Assembly: GCF_010671595.1 (NCBI RefSeq)
Contig: NZ_JAABOP010000001.1
Location: 806,001 to 870,000 of the forward strand
Source of the DNA: Muriicola jejuensis
GTDB lineage: Bacteria; Bacteroidota; Bacteroidia; Flavobacteriales; Flavobacteriaceae
Length of the DNA stretch: 64,000 nt
Reading direction: 5' to 3'
How positions within the stretch are numbered: the first letter of the stretch is position 1; each line of letters begins with the position of its first letter. Under the pieces are notes generated by a model, which worked only from the letters and a program-made list of their open reading frames with translations, made no database searches and was not told the DNA's origin. Made by a program: the position numbers and the translations under genes. Below, one piece after another: positions 39,852 to 44,602 of this stretch.

Positions 39852-42800
39852 TCAGGATGTTCCTGCCCGGGTTGCACCTTTATCAATGACTTCTTTACCC
39901 CTATCCCTTAACAGCCTGTTCTGCGTAGCCGTCTTCATTTCGGCATATCGTGGGTCCTGTATGTAATCCTCCTTTTGCATCTTCATCACCTCTATGCTCA
40001 GGAAGCCAAACTCGCTCACCACCTTGCCATAAAAACGGTAGATCCCCCGCCCCCTGAAACGGTATTTGGCAGCCACAGGCGGAAAGAGGACCGTGTCAAA
40101 CACCTCCCCCTGCTGGTCTACAAGGGTGGCGAAGTTCATCCGCTTGCCCGTATGGGTCTTGGTGTTCTTTACCGTGACCAGGTAGCCATAGATGTCGATA
40201 TAACGGCCCTCGTACCGTGGGAGGTCCTTGCTGCCGTGGTCGTTCCTGGGAGGTTCCTTCAGCAGGGAAAAAGGGCTGCAGAGGCAGAACCCCAGGAGCT
40301 CCCACTGGGTAAAGGCCGTCTCCAGGTCTGTGGAGTGAAGCTGTGGAATACTGAAATCCTGGTGGACGGGCGGGAAGAGTTTAGGATGGTCTATCGCATT
40401 TCCTTTGTTGAGGAACAGATGGGCTTCCCACAGGAGTTCGTGCTTATTGATCCCTGTAAAGCGGAAGGCATCGATGCGGATCAGGATGCTCACCTGCTCG
40501 ATGGAGATAACCACCCGGTCCAGGAAATCCTCCAGGGAACCAAAAGGCCCTCGGGCCCTTCGTTCCTTCAGGATGCGGTCCATCACCCGGGCCTCCAGTT
40601 CCTTCAGGTATGCAAATCCCAGGTAGATCTCCTTTCCGTAAATACAGTTCACCGCTGTACTCCTGTTCACACAGGGGGCATGGATCACAGCGCCCAGCAT
40701 ACGCGCCTCGTGCACGTAGAACTCCGGTCGGTAGAAACCGCCCCCGTTGTTGAGCACCGCCACCAGATATTCGAGGGGGTAGTAGGTCCTCAAAAACAGG
40801 CTCTGATAGCTCTCCACGGCATAGGAGGCCGAGTGGCCCTTGGCAAAGGCATAGCCCGCAAAGCTGGCCACCTGATGCCAGACCTCGTCGATGAGGGAGT
40901 CCTCGTAGCCCTTCCTGCGGCAGTTTTCCACAAACTTCTCCCTGATCTTCTGAAACTCTTCCCGGGAGCGGTACTTCCCGCTCATTCCCCTGCGAAGCAC
41001 GTCGGCCTCCCCCAGGGTGAGACCTGCAAAATAGTGGGCCACCTTGATCACATCCTCCTGGTAGACCATCACCCCGTAGGTGTCGGGCATGATGTCGAGC
41101 ATTACCGGATGTCCCTTCTCCTCTGCCCTGCCGGGATTTCGGTGCCTCATGATATACTCCCGCATCATCCCGCTCTGGGCCACCCCTGGCCTGATGATGG
41201 AACTGGCAGCCACCAGGCCCAGGTAGGTGTCTACCTCCAGTTTCCTGAGCAGCATTCGCATGGCAGGCGATTCCACATAGAAACAGCCCATACACTGGGC
41301 AGACCGTATCATGCCGTTGATCTGCGGGTCCTGCTTAAAGGCCTTGATGTCGTGTATGTCGATGGAGGCGTGTTCCTCCGGCTGGTTGAAGGCCAGGATC
41401 TCTATGGCCTCTTTGATCTTGGCCAGGCCCCGCTGCCCCAGGATGTCGAACTTGTACAGGCCTACGTCCTCGGCGATCACCATGTCGAACTGGGTAGTGG
41501 CAAAACCTTTGGGAGGGAGGTGGGTGGCGGAAAAACAGTGGAGGGATCTGTCACTGATGAGGATCCCCCCGGCGTGGATACTGAGGTAATTGGGCATGTC
41601 CTTGATCAGGTTGCCGTATTTGAGGACCAGGAGGGAGACCCCATCCAGGTCAGAGGGGTTGTAATGCCCTTCGCAGAGGAAGTCGATCTCCGCCTTGGGC
41701 AGTCCAAAGACCTTGCCGAGTTCCCGGATCACACCTCTCGACTTAAAGGTGACATAAGTGCCTAGCAGGGCGACATGCGGAAAGCGGTCAAAGATGTACC
41801 GGGTGATCTCCTCCCGGTCCTTCCATGAAAAATCGATGTCGAAATCGGGCGGATTGGTCCGGTAGAGGTTGATAAAACGTTCAAAGTAGAGGTCGAGTTC
41901 AATGGGGTCTACATCGGTGATCCGCAACAGGTAGGCCACGATGCTGTTGGCCCCGCTCCCCCGCCCCACGTAGTAGAAGCCGCGCCTTCTCGCTTCGGAG
42001 ACGATATCCCAGTTGATGAGGAAGTAGGAGACGAACCCCTTGTCCTTGATAAGGTCCAGCTCCTTTGCCATGCGGTTTAGGATACGGTCGTCTACCTCCG
42101 GGTAGCGGTAGGGTAGCCCTTTTTGGCACAATTCTTCCAGGAGAGTCTCGTCTGCCTCCCGGCTTCCGAGATAAGTGCTCAGGTTCTGCGGTTTTCGTTC
42201 TGAGGAGAAGTCGAAATGGATGCTGCACAATTGCATGAGCTGTTCCGTGTTCTTCAGGATGAAGGAATATTCGGAAAAGACCTCCGCCAGGTTGCGGACG
42301 GGAAACATCTTTTCCTCGGGGGAGGCCTGCTCTTCTTCCGGCAACTTGCTCAGCAACACATTATTGTCGATGGCGCGGAGGAGACGGTGCGCATTGAAAT
42401 CGCGCTTATTCCTGAAGGTGACGGGTTGTAAGACCACCAATTTGTCCCTGTATTCTATAAGCCTGGAAAAGGGCAACCGCCTCAGGTCTGCCACCGAGAT
42501 GCCGATGTATTCAAATTCCGAAAAGTGGTACTGGTCATTGAGGAGTACTTTCTCGAAGGGGTAGATCACATAGGCGTTTTGAAAAGCAGGGGCCTTTCCG
42601 GGAATTTTTTTCTCCCTGTGGAGGTGATCCGAAAGGAATTCGTTGAGCTCTCGGTACCCTTCATTGTTTTTGGCGATCCCCACAAAACAGGTATCCACCC
42701 CGTTGCGGAAATCGATCCCTAAAATGGGCTGTATCCCAAAATCCGCTGCCCTGCGGACAAAGTTGAGGCAGGCCGAGGTATTATTGATATCGGTAAGGGC

Positions 42801-42899
42801 CAGGCGGGTGACTTCATTTTCCCGGGCCAGTTCCAACAGGGCCACCTCGGAGAAGGTGCCGTAGCGGAGGCTGTAGTATGTATGGCAATTCAAATACAC
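39852..42899 (-). CDS. dnaE2: Error-prone DNA polymerase DnaE2-like (C-family alpha subunit)
   Basis: A 1015-residue C-family polymerase without an exonuclease domain: PHP domain at the N-terminus (YLNCHTYYSLRYGTFSE), polymerase core with GRGSGANSIVAYLLRITDVDP and catalytic PPDFDIDFSWKDR near residue 340, KGHSASYAVESYQ near 680, and a C-terminal OB fold. Paired with dinB it forms a mutagenesis cassette for lesion bypass. I start at GTG 42899, where homologues begin. A frame extension to 42929 would translate the AAATTCC repeat (MEFGIWNF) and is probably not native. Separated from dinB by the S23 element. Confidence 0.9.
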   Translation of the reverse strand: MYLNCHTYYSLRYGTFSEVALLELARENEVTRLALTDINNTSACLNFVRRAADFGIQPILGIDFRNGVDTCFVGIAKNNEGYRELNEFLSDHLHREKKIPGKAPAFQNAYVIYPFEKVLLNDQYHFSEFEYIGISVADLRRLPFSRLIEYRDKLVVLQPVTFRNKRDFNAHRLLRAIDNNVLLSKLPEEEQASPEEKMFPVRNLAEVFSEYSFILKNTEQLMQLCSIHFDFSSERKPQNLSTYLGSREADETLLEELCQKGLPYRYPEVDDRILNRMAKELDLIKDKGFVSYFLINWDIVSEARRRGFYYVGRGSGANSIVAYLLRITDVDPIELDLYFERFINLYRTNPPDFDIDFSWKDREEITRYIFDRFPHVALLGTYVTFKSRGVIRELGKVFGLPKAEIDFLCEGHYNPSDLDGVSLLVLKYGNLIKDMPNYLSIHAGGILISDRSLHCFSATHLPPKGFATTQFDMVIAEDVGLYKFDILGQRGLAKIKEAIEILAFNQPEEHASIDIHDIKAFKQDPQINGMIRSAQCMGCFYVESPAMRMLLRKLEVDTYLGLVAASSIIRPGVAQSGMMREYIMRHRNPGRAEEKGHPVMLDIMPDTYGVMVYQEDVIKVAHYFAGLTLGEADVLRRGMSGKYRSREEFQKIREKFVENCRRKGYEDSLIDEVWHQVASFAGYAFAKGHSASYAVESYQSLFLRTYYPLEYLVAVLNNGGGFYRPEFYVHEARMLGAVIHAPCVNRSTAVNCIYGKEIYLGFAYLKELEARVMDRILKERRARGPFGSLEDFLDRVVISIEQVSILIRIDAFRFTGINKHELLWEAHLFLNKGNAIDHPKLFPPVHQDFSIPQLHSTDLETAFTQWELLGFCLCSPFSLLKEPPRNDHGSKDLPRYEGRYIDIYGYLVTVKNTKTHTGKRMNFATLVDQQGEVFDTVLFPPVAAKYRFRGRGIYRFYGKVVSEFGFLSIEVMKMQKEDYIQDPRYAEMKTATQNRLLRDRGKEVIDKGATRAGTS

Positions 42900-42906
42900 C
42901 TGAGAA

Positions 42907-42936
42907 AAATTCCAAATTCCAAATTCCAAATTCCAA
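42907..42936. repeat. Left inverted repeat of the S23 element, (AAATTCC)x4+AA
   Basis: Four perfect tandem 7-bp units followed by AA, 8 bp from the dnaE2 GTG. It is the exact reverse complement of 43357-43386. Confidence 0.9.
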
Positions 42937-42964
42937 CTTTGGATAAATGCTGACGAATTCTATT

Positions 42965-43354
42965 TTATATAATCTCTTCTTTGGATTTTGATACTTTGTT
43001 GAGAATGGAAGAGAGGATCATTCTTAACTGCAGTACCTCATCGATCAATATTTCGGCTTCTTTTTCATATGTATCATTCATATCCCTTAAAAGTCTTAAC
43101 CAGTAGGAAGCTTCCTTGGCTTCTTTTCTGGCAATTTTGAGCCTCATGTAAAGATCTCTCTCACCTAATTTTTCATTTGCCTCAATGTAATTGGCCCCAA
43201 TAGAACCTGAAGATTTGATAAGCTGTTTACCATCTTCCACATTGCCGAGAGTTTTTGGTAATTTCTTTATAAATATTCTGCAATCTCTAGCAAACGAGTA
43301 CGTCCGCTCTTCCAGATCATATACCTTTCTATTTTTCATCATTTTCTCTCTCAT
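42965..43354 (-). CDS. Four-helix bundle protein (S23/IVS-type, TIGR02436 family)
   Basis: A 129-residue all-helical protein with the family marks DLEERTYSFARDCRIFIKKLP, SSGSIGANYIEANE and ARKEAKEASYWLRLL. The family is encoded in intervening sequences of 23S rRNA and in scattered chromosomal sites, and the related Avd protein serves diversity-generating retroelements; function of solo copies is unknown. Start may be ATG 43354, 43342 or 43339. The gene is more AT-rich than dinB and dnaE2 and lies between inverted heptamer repeats, so it looks inserted into that operon. Confidence 0.9.
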   Translation of the reverse strand: MREKMMKNRKVYDLEERTYSFARDCRIFIKKLPKTLGNVEDGKQLIKSSGSIGANYIEANEKLGERDLYMRLKIARKEAKEASYWLRLLRDMNDTYEKEAEILIDEVLQLRMILSSILNKVSKSKEEII

Positions 43355-43356
43355 TT

Positions 43357-43386
43357 TTGGAATTTGGAATTTGGAATTTGGAATTT
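43357..43386. repeat. Right inverted repeat of the S23 element, TT+(GGAATTT)x4
   Basis: Four perfect 7-bp units, 1 bp from the dinB stop and 2 bp upstream of the S23 gene's first ATG. Reverse complement of 42907-42936. Confidence 0.9.
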
Positions 43387-43387
43387 A

Positions 43388-44602
43388 TTATTGTTTGCGA
43401 TGAGCAAGAATGATCGGCGGTTGTCCATTGAACGGGTTCACCATCCTCCCGATAGTCTTCGCCCCCATGCCCGAGGCGCGGATAACGCTCTTGTCGCCGA
43501 AGCGCTCCCGAAGCCGGTCCATGGCCGCGTAGAGGTTCAGGGCCTCCTCCGTGTCCTCGAACAGGTTGATCTGGTAATTCCCGGGTACCAGATGGCTGAA
43601 CCTGATCCCGACCAGGCGGACCAGCATCCGTTTGTTGTACAGACTGTTGAACAGTTCCAGGATCCTGGGGATGAGGATATGGTCTGCGCTGGTGTAGGGG
43701 ATGCGCATCTGTTTGGAGTAGGTGTTGAAATCCGAATAGCGCACCTTCACCGCGATACAGGCCGTGAGCTTTTCGCCCCGCCTCAACTGGTAGGCCAGGT
43801 TCTCCGTCATAGCGATCAGGATCCCCCTCAGCCTGACGACATCTATGGTATCCCTGTCGAAAGTGCGTTCGGTGGAGATGGATTTGCGGTCCGAAAAAGG
43901 GATGACCGGGGTGTTGTCTACCCCGTTGGCCCGCTTCCAGATCACCTTCCCGTTGGCCCCCAGTACGCGCTGCATCACATCCACGGGCATTTCCTGTATG
44001 GTCCTGACCTGTCTCAGGCCCAGGTTGCGCAGGATCTGGTAGGTCTTATCGCCCACCATGGGGATCTTCTTGATGGAGAGGGGAGCCAGAAAGGGCTTCT
44101 CATAACCGAGATCTACCTTGAGCTGGTTGTTGGGTTTGGCCTCGTTGGTGGCCACCTTGGAGACCACCTTGTTTACGGACAGGCCAAAGGAGATAGGCAG
44201 GCCCGTTTCCCTCATGATGGTCCTGCGCAGTTCGGATGCATAACGGTAGCAACCAAAAAAACGGTCCATGCCTGAGAGGTCTGCATAAAACTCGTCAATG
44301 CTCGATTTTTCGAAGACGGGGACCTTCTCTTTGATGATCTCGGTCACCAGGTCCGAATGCTTGCTGTAGGTCCCGGCATTGCCGCGTATCACCACCGCCT
44401 CCGGGCAGAGTTCCCGCGCCATCTTCATGGGCATGCCGGAATGCACCCCGAAGCCCCGGGTCTCGTAGCTGCACGCAGCCACCACACCCCGGTCACTGGT
44501 GCCCCCTACCAGGATGGGTTTATTTTTGAGCTCGCTGTTGATGAGTCGCTCCACAGACACAAAAAACGTGTCGAGATCCAGATGTAAAATCGTCTTTTGC
44601 AT
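43388..44602 (-). CDS. dinB: Y-family DNA polymerase (DinB/Pol IV)
   Basis: A 404-residue translesion polymerase. Catalytic carboxylates are Asp9 in HLDLDTFF and Asp103-Glu104 in SSIDEFYADL; the helix-hairpin-helix region (IPMVGDKTYQILRNLG) and little-finger domain follow. Near the C-terminus QINLF fits a beta-clamp binding motif. It is the first gene of a dinB-(S23)-dnaE2 cassette, akin to imuB/dnaE2 pairs that cause damage-induced mutation, but it keeps the catalytic residues missing in ImuB. A palindrome overlaps its presumed promoter. Confidence 0.95.
   Translation of the reverse strand: MQKTILHLDLDTFFVSVERLINSELKNKPILVGGTSDRGVVAACSYETRGFGVHSGMPMKMARELCPEAVVIRGNAGTYSKHSDLVTEIIKEKVPVFEKSSIDEFYADLSGMDRFFGCYRYASELRRTIMRETGLPISFGLSVNKVVSKVATNEAKPNNQLKVDLGYEKPFLAPLSIKKIPMVGDKTYQILRNLGLRQVRTIQEMPVDVMQRVLGANGKVIWKRANGVDNTPVIPFSDRKSISTERTFDRDTIDVVRLRGILIAMTENLAYQLRRGEKLTACIAVKVRYSDFNTYSKQMRIPYTSADHILIPRILELFNSLYNKRMLVRLVGIRFSHLVPGNYQINLFEDTEEALNLYAAMDRLRERFGDKSVIRASGMGAKTIGRMVNPFNGQPPIILAHRKQ

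Follow-up and report, generated by a model that had tools for sequence, protein, structure and literature searches.

Between dinB and dnaE2 in a 64,000-nt stretch of the Muriicola jejuensis genome (contig NZ_JAABOP010000001.1, positions 806,001 to 870,000; hereafter the window), two inverted arrays of a 7-bp unit enclose a gene for a 23S rRNA-intervening-sequence (S23) protein. Short inverted repeats around a coding gene, or without one, are familiar from the REP/REPIN elements associated with RAYT transposases, whereas the unit in the window is a heptad array and not a fixed palindrome. The closest described system is the intervening sequence (IVS) of 23S rRNA. In Coxiella, this IVS is 428–444 nt long, has heptamers (GACAGAT) repeated in tandem immediately ahead of the S23 start and a 28-bp stem, and is excised by RNase III; the paper also describes reductive evolution of the IVS and gives S23 proteins as lacking a known function (PMC4990558). 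Heptameric intergenic repeats have been reported as GGGAATC in Xanthomonas, where one strain has 70 and another 75 inverted pairs, and as GGGGA(C/T)T in Nostoc (PMC4692102), and as TAACTGA in Beggiatoaceae, cyanobacteria and five Bacteroidetes, with S1, Csp or Csr-type regulators proposed as binders (PMC4679880); in 2015, such repeats were said to be without a detailed literature (PMC4692102). Tandem 7-bp intergenic units are common to these repeats and the window, but the term S23 does not occur in either text (PMC4692102, PMC4679880). Heptads were on record for one IVS, and heptad repeats for several phyla; the link between S23 and heptads is new: within the open-access literature, a coverage that takes in neither subscription papers nor preprints, we found no paper connecting S23 genes in general with heptad arms.

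We consider it about 60% probable that the window locus is a copy of a widespread class of small elements, in which an S23 gene lies between inverted, subfamily-specific 7-bp arrays and which would resemble the IVS in being looped out, cut and recognized by S23. Sequence-level support comes from the anatomy of the locus, the enrichment of inverted arms around S23 genes, the coupling of arms to S23 subfamily, the co-variation of the arms, the existence of junctions free of the element, the co-direction of S23 with its neighbors and purifying selection on S23; the class itself, an S23 gene with its cognate inverted heptad arms, is very likely. The element would be transcribed as part of the dinB–dnaE2 operon, its two heptad arrays would pair in vivo and form a long stem, with the S23 open reading frame (ORF) in the loop, and RNase III would cut that stem, as published for 23S IVSs; by analogy with the latter, RNA pairing followed by RNase III processing is somewhat likelier than its absence. 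On the evidence of the coupling between subfamily and heptad, S23 may bind and read its own heptads, and such recognition could protect, process or spread the element, which may once have been mobile, with gene and arms moving as a unit. A 23S rRNA IVS with an S23 ORF would then be the rRNA-dwelling member of the class, and the window copy an operon member.

The element between dinB and dnaE2

The element spans 480 bp (42907..43386, minus strand), as delimited by its arms, its ORF and the short dinB–dnaE2 gaps found elsewhere. The mRNA 5′ arm, (AAATTCC)x4 + AA at 43357..43386, and the mRNA 3′ arm, TT + (GGAATTT)x4 at 42907..42936, both taken on the minus strand, are perfect reverse complements over 30 bp, and between them lies the S23 gene (42965..43354, minus strand, 129 aa), whose ATG follows the 5′ arm at a distance of 2 nt. 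One base pair separates the dinB stop (43388) from the element (43386), and 7 bp separate its other end (42907) from the dnaE2 GTG (42899). Arm positions, complementarity and both spacings agree with the original prediction, as does the identity of the enclosed gene, which matches TIGR02436 at 63.4 bits (cut-off 24; E 1.9e-17) and PF05635 at 48.5 bits (cut-off 33.8; E 1.1e-12). It also matches the sequence of PDB entry 2rld, which holds five chains, at E 2e-8; Avd, the accessory protein of diversity-generating retroelements, is a four-helix-bundle pentamer with a fold related to that of S23. To our knowledge, S23 has no catalytic domain, and no PADLOC defense family matched up to E 1. The protein-family scans at the junction covered dinB, S23 and dnaE2. 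Apart from S23, the only ORF of at least 60 aa in the 480-bp element is a plus-strand 70-aa ORF overlapping it.

A chance repeat is ruled out by comparison with shuffled sequence: AAATTCCAAATTCC has six matches in the window at no more than one mismatch, against a mean of 0.10 and a maximum of 1 over 100 shuffles. Tandem Repeats Finder (minimum score 40) returned no further period-7 array in the 64-kb window. The predicted fold of a 511-nt RNA has a 30-bp closing stem (z −4.2; none of 100 shuffles did as well), and the earlier proposal that the stem loops out the S23 ORF stands at the level of sequence only, in that the arms co-vary.

Because dinB, S23 and dnaE2 all lie on the minus strand, the order in the mRNA is dinB, AAATTCC arm, S23, GGAATTT arm, dnaE2. 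The mRNA-upstream gene dinB (DNA polymerase IV; 43388..44602, minus strand) matches Pfam IMS and IMS_C above their cut-offs and the NCBIfam DNA polymerase IV models only under theirs. Downstream, the DNA polymerase III alpha-type gene for which we keep the original name dnaE2 (39852..42899, minus strand, GTG start at 42899) matches TIGR00594 above cut-off and the error-prone polymerase model PRK05672 below that model's own cut-off. A longer dnaE2 ORF from a TTG at 42929 runs into the 3′ arm (MEFGIWNF...), and the heptamers had accordingly been offered as a possible N-terminal extension of DnaE2. This part of the original prediction is probably wrong: at 49 compared loci, including loci without preceding heptads, the homologous start is the residue encoded by the window GTG. 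To judge from these alignments, a DnaE2 start within the 3′ heptad array (42899–42929) is most likely an ORF-caller effect and probably a misannotation.

The expected IVS layout within an mRNA operon is present as an S23 ORF between complementary 30-bp arms. Like the 23S IVS, the element holds its ORF within a long stem of complementary ends, with heptads that in Coxiella also stand directly upstream of the ORF (PMC4990558) and that recur as arms in a 23S copy from Azospirillum (below). Unlike the IVS, the window copy sits between two protein genes, where cutting would split the message, and S23 of the window type looks maintained, in contrast to the reductive evolution described for Coxiella (PMC4990558). 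Its location sets the window copy apart from 23S IVSs, whereas its anatomy matches theirs. Conserved operons can thus harbor a stem-loop insertion, here at dinB–dnaE2 and at a rimM–methyltransferase junction of Flavobacterium, and their messages may be split or regulated by it.

Inverted arms around S23 genes and their coupling to subfamily

Three samples of S23 loci were surveyed: a family sample (Flavobacteriaceae, one genome per genus, 149 genomes), a phylum sample (296 genomes) and a window-subfamily sample (80 loci from named genomes). At least 113 of the 149 family genomes and at least 223 of the 296 phylum genomes carry one or more S23 genes, and the loci surveyed were the best-scoring among the matches listed. 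The 250 nt 5′ and the 250 nt 3′ of each S23 gene were scored as an inverted pair, with 639 ORFs drawn from 800 kb of same-family genomes (40 stretches, 20 kb each) as controls; these are raw ORFs, some of which are perhaps not genes. The window's own locus (L009), missed by the first profile, stands outside the family set, from which one duplicate was removed (110 to 109 loci) that still counts in the orientation tally below. One of the 80 window-subfamily loci has no flank, leaving 79 scored, and two loci identical over 6354 bp (L170 and L171) are counted separately.

Inverted-repeat scores exceeded the 99% quantile of the controls at 41 of 109 family loci, 58 of 79 window-subfamily loci and 12 of 29 phylum loci. 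Inverted heptad arms thus recur around S23 genes of Bacteroidota far beyond the window, and an element unique to the window locus is ruled out. Over six settings of the arm search, 16 to 42 of the 109 family loci lay above the 99% control level; measured against mismatched pairs from the family set itself, 52 of 109 lay above the 95% level and 20 above the 99% level. Period-7 runs were found at 25% of family and 19% of window-subfamily loci (controls 1.7%), period-8 runs at 7% of family, 0% of window-subfamily and 7% of phylum loci (controls 0.5%), and periods 4, 5, 6, 9 and 10 at 0–1%. An exact period of 7 is clear in the family and window-subfamily samples and not in the phylum sample, where inspection of several sub-threshold loci shows degenerate heptads, which do not enter the count. 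A search of six loci for known RNA families returned only an S16 leader, at two loci and outside the element.

Heptads vary from locus to locus (TAGTATTGAG-type, TTAGCTA, GTTGTTG, AGTTCTT, GTATAGT and others), and this variation follows the S23 protein. The coupling test used 127 of 218 loci, those with an arm score of at least 13 and an intact ORF. The more alike their S23 proteins, the larger the overlap in arm 6-mers (Mantel r 0.78; 0 of 2000 permutations), and this is also true of the 52 elements of the family set (r 0.55; 0 of 2000). Pairs without a detected shared flanking gene had arms in common (overlap at least 0.2) in 11 of 13 cases at 60–70% S23 identity, in 23% of 71 cases at 50–60% and in 2–4% of 1156 cases below 50%; the neighbors of the 13 pairs, which are non-independent, differ on inspection. 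Arm sharing where no flanking gene is shared means that the coupling is not due to orthology alone. Conversely, none of the 18 pairs with both flanks shared and S23 identity of 30–50% had arms in common, and S23 genes of less than 50% identity within one genome shared arms in 1 of 11 pairs. Since the repeat unit follows the S23 subfamily, S23 proteins and heptameric repeats, both poorly understood, become tied together.

Within the window subfamily, AAATTCC before and GGAATTT after the gene were found at 67 of 80 loci, with the opposite unit before the gene in 22 loci and after it in 5. Clear arms are present at 63 loci of the subfamily: 46 at one Flavobacterium junction (presumably after rpsP and rimM and before a methyltransferase gene; Rfam identifies an S16 leader there), 8 at dinB–dnaE2, 5 at a third junction and 4 in unlinked contexts. 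One of these four (L159) is an inverted copy at the Flavobacterium junction, and its reassignment leaves at least six junctions for the subfamily. In this Flavobacterium succinicans copy (L159 2132–3952), S23 is inverted relative to both neighbors and the ORF has only 90 codons; in Muricauda myxillae (L162 3001–3255), also of the window subfamily, a premature stop interrupts the S23 gene and the arms are retained.

The arms also have a fixed polarity, being G-rich in 28 and C-rich in none of 51 family elements, and C-rich in 41 and G-rich in none of 63 window-subfamily elements, compared with 41 G-rich and 49 C-rich of 630 controls. S23 is co-directional with both neighbors at 93 of 104 loci versus 45 of 109 control small ORFs (Fisher 4.8e-14), and at 22 of 27 and 72 of 76 loci in the other two samples; unclassified rows (6 family, 2 phylum, 4 window-subfamily and 35 control) are omitted from this tally. 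Taken together, polarity and strong co-direction point to an RNA-level role, or at least to dependence on operon transcription. Across 124 elements, the 5′ arm starts a median of 4 nt past the upstream stop codon (middle half −2 to 11). The median dN/dS of S23 is 0.125 over 121 window-subfamily pairs with usable dS, which are non-independent, and points to purifying selection; between the window S23 and that of a congener (L135), dN is 0.20, with no dS value.

Plasmids extend the pattern beyond Bacteroidota. Twelve of 26 S23-matching plasmid records were fetched, 11 of them cyanobacterial, and inverted arms scored at least 14 in 10 of the 12 loci (9 cyanobacterial; L332 and L337 fell below 14), against a control level taken from Flavobacteriaceae and not from cyanobacteria. 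By eye, these arms are mostly heptad, one (L335) resembling period 8, and in 9 of the 10 (not L330) the locus's own arms beat all mismatched pairs. On plasmid AZO_p2 of Azospirillum lipoferum, the S23 frame is embedded in a 23S rRNA gene (Rfam RF02541; L338) and has heptad arms. With S23, inverted arms and heptads present in both settings, the rRNA IVS and the operon element share their build. Tentatively, and at less than even odds, one may go further: S23 proteins could be subfamily-specific readers of heptads, S23 with its arms a mobile class acting at the RNA level in several phyla, the IVS one of its habitats, the heptads of Bacteroidota and cyanobacteria (perhaps also of Xanthomonas) its footprints or non-autonomous copies, and insertion into an operon a cleavable joint. 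In three of the plasmid loci (L329, L330 and L335), S23 and its inverted arms stand inside CRISPR operons, as cas6–S23–cas4 in two and as cas10–S23–Cmr3 family gene in the third; cas6–cas4 of cyanobacteria is thus, by annotation, among the operons with an inserted element. Further host operons are those of what we take to be hisH–hisA-, suf- and metH-like genes.

The dinB–dnaE2 junction in relatives

DinB was found in 65 of 120 genomes; the 30 best loci were retrieved, and 29 represent new genera. In 14 of these 29, dinB and dnaE2 overlap or are at most 9 nt apart, so that junctions without the element exist, as expected had it been inserted; the gap is 28–83 nt in 10 and at least 121 nt without S23 in 4. 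At the remaining locus (L306), the gap is 518 nt, the S23 ORF is open, a conserved motif is altered and the arms are nearly gone; this is perhaps a decaying element. S23-less heptad hairpins of other units were seen by eye at dinB–dnaE2 in three genera (L300, L310 and L312).

Eight of nine genomes found within the genus have DinB. Besides the window's own junction (L133), S23 is present at one of the seven readable congener junctions (L135); a gene common to all close relatives with no empty site, which the original prediction had named as evidence against itself, is thus not what was found. A relict 5′ arm without S23 remains in L137, and five junctions carry other, S23-less inserts (L134, L136, L138, L139 and L140). 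A clean insertion in close relatives holds only partly. The inserts of L134, L136, L139 and L140 are hairpin-rich and of the CTTTTCTTTG...CAAAGAAAAG type, and that of L138 differs again; the junction looks like a hot spot for repeats. Its history may be one gain with losses or repeated gain. Because 10 of the 12 S23-bearing orthologues were fetched by S23 similarity, they do not give a frequency.

Counter-evidence and rival explanations

Several observations weigh against the element class as we describe it. With false positives held to 1%, the threshold is missed by 68 of the 109 loci in the family sample and by 17 of the 29 in the phylum sample; window-subfamily loci, which share a unit, exceed the 95% and 99% levels of mismatched pairs in 12 and 1 of 79 cases; and period-7 runs reach 3% in the phylum sample against 1.7% in controls. 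Only 1 of the 29 other-genus junctions (L306) holds S23, and no target-site duplication was clear by eye, in a comparison where the loci with gaps of at most 9 nt have DinB only 70–88% identical to that of the window. Three of the four places in the window's own genome with AAATTCCAAATTCC have no S23 by profile search, and S23 lay within 1.5 kb at none of 10 fetched heptad array sites. Cognate S23 (E 1e-20) is missing from 11 of 16 genomes with an AAATTCC array, the exact array from 5 of 10 genomes with cognate S23, and in the four other genomes with both, the arrays lie away from the S23 gene. In the three sets of orthologues described next, the arm of the locus itself ranks first, alone or jointly, in only 4 of 12, 10 of 46 and 8 of 37 cases, and arm mismatches are G-U in 102 and A-C in 129 cases; with no G-U excess, the RNA wobble test is negative and selection on an RNA duplex is not demonstrated.

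The last two points bear on how the arms came to be alike. In the dinB–dnaE2 congener L135, one 5′-arm AAATTCC has become AAATCTC, and the opposite position in the 3′ arm reads GAGATTT to match; in the locus L151, AAAACCC faces GGGTTTT and AAATCCC faces GGGATTT. Own arms align better than swapped ones among the 12 dinB–dnaE2 orthologues (33 of 20000 permutations equally good). At the Flavobacterium junction, the same is seen among 46 orthologues (0 of 20000) and likewise in the 37 that remain without near-identical genes. Single-strand pairing would account for this co-variation, and so would mutual correction of the inverted repeats through arm recombination or template switching in replication, with a functionless stem and S23 as passenger. 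The want of a G-U excess suits such correction, as does the inverted S23 between unchanged neighbors in Flavobacterium succinicans (L159), which is what arm recombination would give. It accords poorly with purifying selection on S23, with an arm polarity fixed by subfamily and with arm conservation among S23 homologues of at least 55% identity without shared flanks, where the arms score 0.219 in the family sample (spacers 0.042, outer flanks 0.037) and 0.461 in the window subfamily (0.163 and 0.049). We regard correction alone as rather unlikely.

The heptads might instead act as duplex DNA, forming an autoregulated operator to which S23 or some other factor binds, with arm pairing incidental. 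Heptads that track the S23 subfamily and a 5′ arm abutting the S23 start in the window fit an operator, as does the distribution of arrays over genomes: TTTGGAATTTGGAATTTGG is present in 16 of 149 genomes and cognate S23 in 10, with both in 5 (P 0.0014), or in 4 without the window's own genome (P 0.0065), in a comparison not corrected for phylogeny. This genome-level association of AAATTCC arrays with cognate S23 is loose. An operator would need neither two-sided inverted arms that change together nor a site inside 23S rRNA, and we think it improbable.

About as doubtful is a unit that resembles a DNA transposon, is bounded by terminal inverted repeats and carries S23 as cargo, the transposase acting in trans from a gene at another site. 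The window element does have inverted ends, junctions free of it exist in other genera, each subfamily occurs in several contexts, and S23-less heptad hairpins (L300, L310, L312 and in the window's own genome) could be non-autonomous copies. Such a unit is at odds with finding neither a transposase inside the element (of its two ORFs of at least 60 aa, the scan covered S23, which matches no transposase family) nor a visible target duplication, with ends that differ widely across subfamilies, and with the co-directional bias (93 of 104), which DNA transposition without selection would not be expected to produce.

That heptad arrays are a general genome feature where S23 merely tends to sit, with no common element, fits the many arrays without S23 and is very improbable given subfamily-specific heptads amid different neighbors and genera and distinct arms for distinct S23 genes of one genome. 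The original prediction had named widespread heptads unlinked to S23 as evidence against itself, and here the outcome is divided: the 10 array sites have no S23 nearby, yet inverted heptad arms are overrepresented around S23 genes. The window's own genome, with a single S23 gene, has 14 matches to AAATTCCAAATTCC at its four places (reversed control 0), so the heptad by itself is not exclusive to S23; of the places without S23, two (hairpins or arrays) lie on contig C11, and the third is a repeated segment on C22 that holds four copies. On C22 (L011 4000–4720), four GGAATTTGGAATTT copies, without S23, lie within longer repeated segments beside a tRNA-like stretch.

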